From: Leucothrix mucor DSM 2157 | GTDB taxonomy: Bacteria; Pseudomonadota; Gammaproteobacteria; Thiotrichales; Thiotrichaceae | Length of the DNA stretch: 64,000 bases | Assembly (NCBI RefSeq): GCF_000419525.1 | Contig: NZ_ATTE01000001.1 | Span: forward strand, 5,004,001 to 5,068,000 | Direction: 5' to 3' | In this document: in pieces, positions 31,782 through 42,049 of the stretch | Layout of the letters: every line of letters begins with the position of its first letter | How positions within the stretch are numbered: position 1 is the stretch's first letter | Made by a program: the position numbers and the translations under genes | The notes under the pieces: generated by a model | What the model was told of the DNA's origin: nothing | Database searches by the model: none | What the model saw: the letters and a program-made list of their open reading frames with translations, nothing else

Positions 31782-31870
31782 AGTGATTGTCCAGTAAGAA
31801 GAGCATACAGATATGCCACAGTGTGCAGCTTAAAAATAGAATTCAACACAAATCGTAACTGTTTTTTGTC

Positions 31871-31905
31871 TAATTAATAGTCCGTTCATCTGGGATCAGC
31901 ATAAT
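31871..31905 (+). promoter_or_regulatory. Promoter-like block, RNA family copy 1
   Basis: TAATTAATAGTCCGTTCAT followed by CATAAT (-10-like, 31900-31905). The same elements (TTAAT, GTTCAT, and TAGAAT at the same place) precede copies 2 and 3, though the intervening bases differ. A canonical TTGACA is absent in all three, which suggests an activator-dependent or alternative-sigma promoter. Confidence 0.55.
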
Positions 31906-31911
31906 GGGCAT

Positions 31912-32045
31912 CAGCTTCAAGGGGCTACAACGAAACAAAAATAATAATAAAAATCAAAACAATAAAAATAAATTCGTTGGTCATATCGTAAGAAATAGGG
32001 AATTCGTGAATCACTCTCTCCATTCACGAATTCCCATATTCTTCA
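31912..32045 (+). ncRNA. Structured small RNA family, copy 1
   Basis: Start inferred from the -10-like box, end from the 3' hairpin. Parts in order: AGCU-UCAAGG-GGCU mini-hairpin; stem A CAACGAA (31928-31934) with TTCGTTG (31973-31979) enclosing an A-rich loop with AATAATAATAA and AACAATAAAAATAA; conserved GTAAGAAA linker; stem B GGGAATTCGTGA (31998-32009) with TCACGAATTCCC (32024-32035) capped by a CU-rich loop (ATCACTCTCTCCAT) and followed by ATATTCTT. See copies 2 and 3 for covariation. No coding sequence is supported here. Confidence 0.72.
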
Positions 32046-32105
32046 CCGCAGTCTTCGCAATACCTTCAACCGCTTTTCCTACCGTTTCCGGTAAGCTTTA
32101 AATCA

Positions 32106-32417
32106 CTACGCTTTAAGATCAAACACGACAATGCCATCTGCGCCGCCGTCTACCGCTGCGACTAATTTTACAGCTGCTGCCTGATGCTCTGGATGGATTA
32201 AGTAGGCATCGCGCGTAGCTTCATCTTTAAAGTCGATAATAAATCCGCCGTTATAGCCTTTATCCATGCCCACTTCCGGTGACACATTGTCGCCTGCTGC
32301 AAAGCCTAACCAGCCATCAACAACTTGCTCCAGATCCGCAACGGTTTGATACAGCGCTTGGCGCTCATCCGCACTTAAGCTGGCTTTGAATTTCAGTAAT
32401 ACCGCATGCTTAATCAT
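32106..32417 (-). CDS. Dabb-family (stress-responsive A/B barrel) protein
   Basis: 103 residues with the ferredoxin-like Dabb fold pattern: MIKHAVLLKFKASLSADERQAL, then GFAAGDNVSPEVGMDKGYNGGFIIDFKDEATRDAYLIHPEH, the typical central block. Members dimerise; some are stress-induced or act as small cyclases or monooxygenase relatives. Five bases separate it from the upstream unknown gene, so they form a two-gene unit. Confidence 0.88.
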   Translation of the reverse strand: MIKHAVLLKFKASLSADERQALYQTVADLEQVVDGWLGFAAGDNVSPEVGMDKGYNGGFIIDFKDEATRDAYLIHPEHQAAAVKLVAAVDGGADGIVVFDLKA

Positions 32418-40476: not shown

Positions 40477-40511
40477 TAGTTAATATACCGTTCATCCGCC
40501 ACCCGTAGAAT
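40477..40511 (+). promoter_or_regulatory. Promoter-like block, RNA family copy 2
   Basis: TAGTTAATATACCGTTCAT then TAGAAT (40506-40511). Shares the TTAAT, CGTTCAT, and -10-like boxes with copies 1 and 3. Confidence 0.55.
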
Positions 40512-40517
40512 GGGACA

Positions 40518-40656
40518 CAGCTTTAAGGGGCTACAACGAAACAAAATAATAATAATAAAAAAGCCTAACAATAATAAAAAAAGGTTCGTTGTGTTATTCA
40601 GTAAGAAACAGGGAATTCGTGAGTCCTCTCCTTCTCACGAATTCCCGTGTTCTTAC
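40518..40656 (+). ncRNA. Structured small RNA family, copy 2
   Basis: AGCU-UUAAGG-GGCU mini-hairpin; stem A CAACGAA (40534-40540) with TTCGTTG (40585-40591) and an A-rich loop with AATAATAATAATAAAA and AACAATAATAAAA; linker CAGTAAGAAACA; stem B GGGAATTCGTGA (40611-40622) with TCACGAATTCCC (40635-40646), loop GTCCTCTCCTTC, tail GTGTTCTT. Nearly identical to copy 1 in stems but not in loops or linkers. Confidence 0.75.
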
Positions 40657-40920
40657 CTCCCAAAGCATCCCTCTCTGATACACCTCATGCTCCAGTCCAA
40701 CCAATTTTCACACTCTGTCAAAGCATCAATGCAGTTGGTTTTTAGCTGTGAACTCCTCCCATGGTTGCACTATAAAACTCAGATTTCAGGTTTAGCCACC
40801 CGCTAAATAAACTGTGCCAACCTATGAATTCACCCTCAAAAAATGATCTTTTTAGCTAACTGAATCAAGCCTTTCCAGATTGAGGTTTTTGAGACAAATT
40901 AGTCTGAAATTAGTTTTTTG

Positions 40921-40953
40921 GTTAATTAATCGTTCATGCCGAAACCGTAGAAT
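40921..40953 (+). promoter_or_regulatory. Promoter-like block, RNA family copy 3
   Basis: GTTAATTAATCGTTCAT then TAGAAT (40948-40953). Same blocks as copies 1 and 2, with the spacer between TTAAT and GTTCAT shorter by about three bases. Confidence 0.55.
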
Positions 40954-40959
40954 GGTGCT

Positions 40960-41091
40960 CAGCTTCTAGGGGCTACCAACAACTACTAAACAGAAGAATA
41001 AAAAAATCTATAATAATAAAAGTTGTTGTTATTGCTGTAAAAATCAGGGAACCAGTGGGCAGTCCTCGCCTCACGGTTCCCTTTCTTTATT
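40960..41091 (+). ncRNA. Structured small RNA family, copy 3 (diverged)
   Basis: AGCU-UCUAGG-GGCU mini-hairpin; stem A CAACAACT (40977-40984) with AGTTGTTG (41031-41038); A-rich loop with ATAATAATAAA; linker CTGTAAAAATCA; stem B GGGAACC (41047-41053) with GGTTCCC (41075-41081) plus an inner GTG/CAC helix after a bulged A, loop containing AGTCCTC; tail TTTCTTTATT. The stems differ from copies 1 and 2 in both strands and still pair. The 3' tail reaches the stop codon of the convergent GlxA-type gene and would serve as its barrier. Confidence 0.72.
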
Positions 41092-42049
41092 GCTTCCTGC
41101 AGAGACTTGGGCTCACTTGAAAATACAGTTTAAACTGCCGTGAAAAAGCAGCCAATGAACTGAACCCGCTGCGTACCGCAATCGCCTGCATTGGCAACCT
41201 TGTATCCAATACTAAGCGCCTGGCTGACTGTAAGCGTAGCCGCAAATAATATTTGCCAGGTGATGTCTGCAAATTCTGCTTAAACAAATACTCCAACATG
41301 CGTACTGAGAGCCTTAATTGCTCAGCGATCTCACTCACGCTAAGTGGCTCATCAATGTGTTGTTCCATCAGGCGAATGGCTTTGGCAATGCGTGGTTCGG
41401 TGCGCTCCAATGCGCCCAGCGAGACAATTGGTTGTGCATCATTTCCGGTGTGAATACCGTCGTAAATAAAGGCACTGGCTACTTCCAAGCCTAAGTGATG
41501 GCCATAGCGCGAACGAATTAAGTGCAACATAAAATCAAAGCTGGGTGATGCGCCGCCAGTGGTAAACACATTGCTATCGATCACAAAGCGGTCGGGGCGC
41601 ACATTCACCTGCGGAAAGCGCAGTGCAAAATCTTCCAGATCCTCCCAGTGCGTGGTGGCTTTTTTATCCGTGAGCTTTCCGGCGCGAGCCATGATCCAAC
41701 TGCCAGCTTCAATCCCGCCAATCACTTTGAACTGGCGCATATAGCCGCGAAGCTTGATTAGAGTGGCATTATCGACGTGCTTATCTTGATTAAAACCGCC
41801 AATCACAATGAGTACATCGCCCGAGCTATTGGCATTTAAGACGCCATCGGAATGAATGGGTAAACCACAACTGAGGGTTGCCGCTTCTCCGTTTAGGGTG
41901 AGTAACTCCCAACTAAATAACTTGCGACGCGATAAGCGATTGGCCGCGCGCATCACATCCAGCACGCAAGCTAGCGACATCATGGAAGACTCGGGGATCA
42001 CTAAAAAAGTGACTCGCAAGGTCTCATTGCTGGGAGCAAAAATATTCAT
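41087..42049 (-). CDS. GlxA/CdhR-type transcriptional regulator (DJ-1/PfpI + AraC HTH)
   Basis: 320 residues. N-terminal DJ-1/PfpI-like ligand domain (TFLVIPESSMMSLACVLDVMRAANRL...VIGGIEAGSWIMARAG, to about 180) and a C-terminal AraC-type double helix-turn-helix (MEQHIDEPLSVSEIAEQLRLSVRMLEYLFKQ, SGFSSLAAFSRQFKLYFQVSPS). Proteins of this design regulate carnitine and glycine-betaine catabolism (CdhR, GbdR). It is divergent from the carnitine operon with 97 bases between start codons, so it is its likely activator. Confidence 0.92.
   Translation of the reverse strand: MNIFAPSNETLRVTFLVIPESSMMSLACVLDVMRAANRLSRRKLFSWELLTLNGEAATLSCGLPIHSDGVLNANSSGDVLIVIGGFNQDKHVDNATLIKLRGYMRQFKVIGGIEAGSWIMARAGKLTDKKATTHWEDLEDFALRFPQVNVRPDRFVIDSNVFTTGGASPSFDFMLHLIRSRYGHHLGLEVASAFIYDGIHTGNDAQPIVSLGALERTEPRIAKAIRLMEQHIDEPLSVSEIAEQLRLSVRMLEYLFKQNLQTSPGKYYLRLRLQSARRLVLDTRLPMQAIAVRSGFSSLAAFSRQFKLYFQVSPSLCRKQ

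Follow-up and report, generated by a model that had tools for sequence, protein, structure and literature searches.

The window analysed here is a stretch of 64,000 bases from the genome of Leucothrix mucor DSM 2157 (G000:C1:5004001-5068000; genome size 5,185,674 bases). It contains three copies of an element between genes, all on the + strand, at 31871-32045 (copy 1), 40479-40656 (copy 2) and 40921-41094 (copy 3). Copy 1 is flanked by a HAD hydrolase gene and a Dabb-domain gene, and copies 2 and 3 are enclosed by an ABC permease gene and an AraC-type regulator gene.

Copy 1 starts with a PhoP-type box, the hexamers ATTAAT and GTTCAT spaced 11 bp (31873..31889), followed after 10 bp by the -10 element CATAAT (31900..31905). 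The box was placed by the columns of 27 distinct promoters and the published Pseudomonas aeruginosa consensus, and the -10 element by the same columns and the sequence spacing. The 5' end of the RNA is predicted at a hairpin with a YNMG-type tetraloop, AGCUU-CAAG-GGGCU (31913..31926; alignments and folding). Stem A, CAACGAA/UUCGUUG, surrounds an A-rich loop of AAN repeats (31928..31979; alignments, folding and loop word count). The 3' terminator-like hairpin occupies 31990..32043, with the core at 31998-32035 and the loop CACUCUCUCC (folding and inverted repeats); in its predicted fold an A-tract is paired with the U-rich tail.

Copies 2 and 3 both carry the box GTTAAT-N5-GTTCAT with the -10 element TAGAAT (40479..40511 and 40921..40953; promoter pattern and promoter columns). 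Their 5' hairpins are AGCUU-UAAG-GGGCU (40519..40532) and AGCUU-CUAG-GGGCU (40961..40974), placed by alignment and folding. Stem A, with an A-rich loop inside, lies at 40534..40591 in copy 2 and, as CAACAACU/AGUUGUUG, at 40977..41028 in copy 3 (alignment, folding and loop word count). The terminator-like hairpin of copy 2 (40601..40656; folding, inverted repeats and C/U-run count) has the anti-Shine-Dalgarno-like loop UCCUCUCCUU, and that of copy 3 (41046..41082; folding) is GGGAACC/GGUUCCC with a U-rich tail. Copies 1 and 2 have weak U-tracts.

RNA structure and extent of the family

Folding from the predicted start gave the 5' hairpin, stem A and the 3' hairpin in all three copies, the same shared elements that the initial annotation had described. 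The folding z-scores were -5.75, -6.44 and -2.42 for copies 1, 2 and 3, and 0/200, 0/200 and 5/200 shuffles folded as well or better; copy 3 is the weakest predicted fold of the three. When copy 3 was folded from 40945, 16 bases further upstream, the MFE structure had no 5' hairpin and extended stem A differently. An automatic hairpin picker, which chose poor windows for several copies, was used for copies 1 and 2 only. The family RNA is predicted to be ~130 nt long, with a 5' tetraloop hairpin, stem A around the A-rich AAN-repeat loop, and a terminator-like hairpin that is often C/U-rich across the family. The 5' hairpin loops of ordinary copies are CAAG, UAAG, CUAG, CCAG, UCAG, UUAG and UUCG, all of the class that we take to be named YNMG; G3e, G3f and copies of the G4b type have different, longer 5' hairpins.

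The compensatory changes proposed at the outset can be read from the sequence. Between copies 1 and 3, two pairs of stem A are compensated (CAACGAA/TTCGTTG in copy 1, CAACAACT/AGTTGTTG in copy 3), and stem B changes from GGGAATT/AATTCCC to GGGAACC/GGTTCCC as claimed. Both core stems covary across the family, in the alignment A7 and in an alignment by MAFFT and RNAalifold. In A7, which has 30 distinct rows and was fitted to the covariance model, 11 of the 12 pairs change on both sides, those in the 5' hairpin partly from copies with alternative hairpins. Its cells pair in 94.1% of cases versus 76.8% after shuffling (0/500 shuffles as high), and in slid controls pairing drops to 24-49%. RNAalifold recovered both helices from a MAFFT alignment of 14 chosen copies out of 31, with the alternative-5'-hairpin, tRNA-linked and own8-type copies left out. 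Compensatory changes fell at 5/11 pairs, every one in stem A; three pairs of the 5' hairpin vary on one side and two are invariant.

The initial annotation had taken the element for a three-copy family. The three copies in the window are real, but the count is too low, since model searches found 8 copies in the same genome at E<=0.001 and a weak candidate, own9 (E=0.0077). BLAST with copy 1 had returned four matches there, including itself and two new copies, with copy 3 absent from the list. Built from 6 copies, the covariance model R1 found 8 in the L. mucor genome and, at E<=1, 3 to 6 matches per genome in the six genus mates; at E<=0.001 it found 26 of the 31 copies counted below, the 6 founders included. 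The model R2 found 31 copies at E<=0.001 in 7/7 genus genomes (8, 3, 2, 6, 5, 4 and 3 in G000 to G006), a recovery that is partly by construction because R2 was built from these same 31 copies. Further homologues in relatives, which the initial annotation had made one test of its claim, are present throughout the genus.

Outside the genus, R2 had no match at E<=0.001 in 69 relatives (76 genomes searched) or in the 273 other genomes of a 274-genome class sample; the filters used for searches of >40 genomes lose weak matches. Weak R2 matches from other genera (G021, G042, G060, G046, G023 and G050; E 0.0125 to 0.086) are not counted; by eye, five of the six, G023 being the exception, retain the box, AAU repeats and a -10-like element. 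The member-like sequences own9, G3g, G3h, G6d and G6e (R2 E 0.0077 to 0.07) are also uncounted, and G27a, G27b and G2c (R1 E 0.02 to 0.9), by eye without family features, were dropped before the counts. The BLAST matches L010, L011 and L012 and 17 of 21 loci from a genome-wide motif scan (exceptions L017, L019, L021 and L030) were judged chance by eye. The promoter pattern also led to an sRNA-like locus, L149 (G003:C46 near 59.6 kb), with box, AAN loop, stem A and terminator and without the usual 5' hairpin; neither covariance model listed it.

Because homologues were found and the stems covary, chance is excluded, and the element is a structurally supported RNA family of the genus Leucothrix, as the conserved-RNA reading had it. 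The exclusion of a protein also stands: copies 1 and 2 have a frame that starts with an ATG at the -10, but that ATG occurs in only 12 of 31 copies and the frame of copy 3 stops at the sixth codon. Nor was a known family recognized, with 0 matches at the gathering score in the window (Rfam 15). The lowest sub-threshold E-value, 0.017, was to CrcZ (RF01675), whose model scored 17.4 and 6.7 bits against a cut-off of 95. A literature search found nothing on small RNAs in Leucothrix, and papers found on Thiothrix, sRNA and Hfq seem unrelated. The family is apparently uncatalogued.

Several copies occupy corresponding positions across species. One copy precedes tRNA-Thr(TGT) in four species (G000, G002, G003 and G006); it was not found in the incomplete genomes G001, G004 and G005. 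Sequences with a box and AAU repeats precede tRNA-Thr in 3 of the 4 g5 loci read (L119, L121 and L126; not L120). The pair of copies 2 and 3 has a tandem pair in G005 as its positional counterpart and is linked through common neighbours to pairs in G001 and G004. Copies 1, own4 and own5 are recent duplicates by sequence: copy 1 matches own4 over 185 bp at 92%, and own5 (G000:C1 near 2189.6 kb) over 284 bp at 82% (window 31838-32121). The latter similarity exceeds the RNA itself, so the duplication carried flanking DNA. Own4 and own5 lie ~1 kb apart with a DUF4360 gene (L079:3259-3870) between them.

The 3' parts differ among subfamilies, and the A-rich loop held in a stem is the common module. 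A diverged subfamily (L080, L007, L098 and L099, with L115 and L118 by eye) differs in its 5' part and is longer in its 3' part. Near it, in L. mucor, G004 and G005, lies a gene of the Zn_protease type (PF05618 in L080); the G001 copy has other neighbours in common with these three.

The promoter and the candidate regulator

What the initial annotation called a promoter-like block is a PhoP-type box, set 10 bases ahead of the -10. The columns of 27 distinct promoters (31 copies) read RTT(A/C)A-N6-RTTCA(T/G)-N10-TAGAAT in nearly every copy, and TT and A do not vary in either half-site; in the G4e type the -10 is shifted one base further on. The P. aeruginosa PhoP consensus published in PMC3156716 is GTTCAGNNNNNRTTCAG, and the family box matches it. 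A Tor box was the first guess, and the PhoP box was put in its place after this consensus. The perfect dyad GCGTTCAC/GTGAACGC in L007 had suggested an RNA hairpin in the promoter block; this reading was dropped because by eye most copies have no dyad, whereas all 27 distinct promoters share the direct repeat.

In the L. mucor genome the full pattern has 2 exact matches, both family members, and 7 matches at <=1 mismatch, 5 of them family members, with 0 in the reversed control. Outside this genome the pattern is less specific. At <=1 mismatch, the numbers versus the reversed control were 5 vs 4 in G003, 5 vs 2 in G006, 9 vs 3 in G050, 4 vs 0 in G002, 6 vs 2 in G010 and 2 vs 0 in G045. Nine exact matches in 7 genomes comprise 4 counted members, 2 more sRNA-like loci and 3 that are not. 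The half-box TTCAT-N5-GTTCAT had 5 matches in the L. mucor genome, one of them a family member, vs 4 in the reversed control.

A second conserved element, approximately (C)TGAA(C/T)-N4-GCTTTC, was found upstream of the PhoP box in 14/31 copies with a regular expression. In the window it lies at 40860-40882; other copies have it 68-71 bp upstream of box 2. Its distance to the PhoP box is thus near-constant, and it contains an inverted TGAAC half-site. A PhoP-type box also stands just upstream of two similar-looking small secreted proteins, exact before L134 (G006:C34:100554) and with one mismatch in the -10 before L148 (G000:C1:2270646); these genes are possible further members of the regulon.

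The L. mucor genome has 18 Trans_reg_C matches, 17 of them in genes of single-regulator size. The gene L163, with a histidine kinase gene next to it, is preceded by a perfect box, ATTCAGCTTATATTCAG, the only one at <=1 mismatch in 18,275 bases before these 17 OmpR-type regulator genes; the 16 others have none within ~1 kb upstream. Between the box and the regulator gene are ~750 bases, which include a small unassigned open frame. It was missed by a 300-base upstream scan and found with an operon-wide scan, which was then run on all 17. The L163 protein shares 94-99% identity with its counterparts in four genus mates and 73-80% with those in three g5 genomes and one g2 genome; no homologue was matched in G001 and G005, both incomplete. 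A perfect box precedes the PhoP-like regulator in 5/5 Leucothrix loci read, letter-identical in 4/4 mates, and a one-mismatch box lies upstream of the homologue in 4/4 loci of two other genera. Position thus ties the box to the regulator. The best NCBIfam family of L163 is PhoP (NF008078) at 206.3 bits, under the equivalog cut-off of 336, and RppA is next at 201.2 bits, 5 bits below.

Proposed function and alternatives

Words of the type AANAANAA number 5.3 per loop versus 2.2 in mononucleotide shuffles across 28 distinct loops, which are related and only roughly delimited; taken by themselves, the window copies give p values of 0.06 to 0.26. The CrcZ-type motif AAnAAnAA is present in unpaired RNA among these 28 loops, and Hfq is encoded in the L. 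mucor genome. The distal site of Hfq prefers ARN repeats, according to PMC4347634. In the 62 nt that follow stem A, 15/28 copies have C/U runs of at least 8 (3.0 expected), a count that takes in U-rich tails, and 10/28 have anti-Shine-Dalgarno 5-mers (4.3 expected); the tRNA-linked and own8-type copies have no C/U runs. The conserved linker was downgraded as a pairing seed, its A-tract pairing with the terminator tail in copies 1 and 2. A CsrA sponge was also rejected, GGA being found in the 5' hairpin region of only 4/31 copies (own8, G3e, G3f and G4d).

Sequence comparison established the family, its covariation, its promoter and the presence of a box at the operon of the regulator itself. 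From these we infer transcription, activation by PhoP, Hfq binding, pairing, targets and any signal such as low Mg2+. The favoured reading is a family of sibling trans-acting sRNAs of ~130 nt, PhoP-activated and Hfq-bound, that would pair with mRNAs. The PhoP-type response regulator L163, phosphorylated by the neighbouring sensor kinase, would bind the two hexamers 11 bp apart and recruit RNA polymerase to a -10 element without an evident -35. The RNA would start at the 5-bp hairpin, whose YNMG tetraloop cap may shield the 5' end, and end at the terminator-like hairpin. Stem A would present ~35-45 nt rich in AAN repeats to the distal face of Hfq, and the Hfq-bound RNA would repress mRNAs through pairing, for which many copies have a C/U-rich terminator loop suited to ribosome-binding sites. 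The probability of this full mechanism is put at about 0.6, and is kept there because of the small margin over RppA, the pattern controls and the circularity of R2. The alternatives below partly overlap with it, and the likelihoods need not sum to one.

The copies might instead act as a CrcZ-like sponge, in which their AAN loops jointly titrate the Hfq distal face without mRNA pairing, so that A-rich mRNAs would be freed while the regulator is active. The common A-rich loop beside varying 3' parts, the enrichment of AANAANAA in the loops, the dose raised by 8 copies and the CrcZ model giving the lowest sub-threshold E-value in Rfam are all consistent with this. CrcZ, however, is ~400 nt long (model length 398), the family has one loop per RNA, and the C/U-rich terminator loops in many copies suggest pairing, so a sponge alone is considered unlikely.

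The same sRNAs may be driven by another regulator of the OmpR/PhoB type, such as PhoB or a TorR-like protein. Tor and Pho boxes are similar, and half-sites are alike across this regulator family. An NCBIfam scan covered 14 of the 17 regulators (L169, L172 and L173 were left out, as was the 1043-aa L167); L156 and L159 pass the PhoB cut-off of TIGR02154, and L163 is under that for PhoP. Against these points, the box at <=1 mismatch stands only before the PhoP-like operon among the 17 genes and is identical in all five Leucothrix loci of L163, and the TorR cut-off of 275 bits was passed by none of the 14 regulators scanned (highest listed 195.4). A different regulator is accordingly judged rather improbable. 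A search with TIGR00975 for PstS, for comparison with a Pho box, found none and so did not count against PhoB.

A non-autonomous MITE- or REP-like repeat whose arms resemble RNA stems would explain the dispersed, near-identical copies, such as copy 1 with own4 and own5, but it is very improbable given the promoter conserved at the 5' end, the covarying stems, the corresponding positions across species (as at tRNA-Thr in 4 species), the lack of a transposase among 12 flanking proteins scanned in the L. mucor genome, and the inverted repeats of at least 10 nt, which are the internal stems of the RNA with none terminal, in line with the initial view that this is no transposon.

Relation to known small RNAs

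The E. coli gene MgrR is a single gene and is contained in Rfam, whereas the Leucothrix family has 8 sibling copies, an A-rich loop held by a stem and no Rfam match at the gathering score in the window. They would be alike in PhoP-type control, MgrR being a PhoP/PhoQ-dependent sRNA of Hfq class II according to PMC6239178, and the family having, on sequence, a PhoP box before the -10. The AANAANAA-type A-rich motifs of the family loops are also found in CrcZ and CrcY of Pseudomonas, where they suit the Hfq distal site (PMC4347634). The family differs from CrcZ in length (~130 nt vs ~400 nt) and in its score of 17.4 bits vs the RF01675 cut-off of 95. CrcZ also has several A-rich motifs that are spread out, and a CbrB/sigma-54 promoter in place of the PhoP-type box.

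Cuckoo RNAs are sibling sRNAs with anti-Shine-Dalgarno loops. The Leucothrix family resembles these and the meningococcal sibling sRNAs (PMC5362039) in having several paralogous copies, many with C/U-rich loops. Both belong to other lineages, and the likeness is one of general features. Neither is known to have an AAN loop or a PhoP box. The general type of the Leucothrix sRNAs is a known one, but the family is new, and it is probably PhoP-activated and Hfq-bound.

It would add a structurally supported sRNA family, without a Rfam match, to little-studied marine bacteria. If the proposed control is true, PhoP-type sRNA control would reach well beyond the known enterobacterial examples. Because 5 of the 7 promoter-pattern matches in the L. 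mucor genome are family members, sRNAs may be a large arm of the regulon. Tentatively, this could be a dispersed PhoP regulon grown by gene amplification, in which 8 or 9 siblings with a common promoter, a Hfq-docking loop and exchangeable 3' ends would together form a stress-controlled Hfq sponge and individually repress mRNAs. Eight siblings with one 5' module and varied 3' modules would make it possible to test directly whether Hfq docking is separable from target choice.
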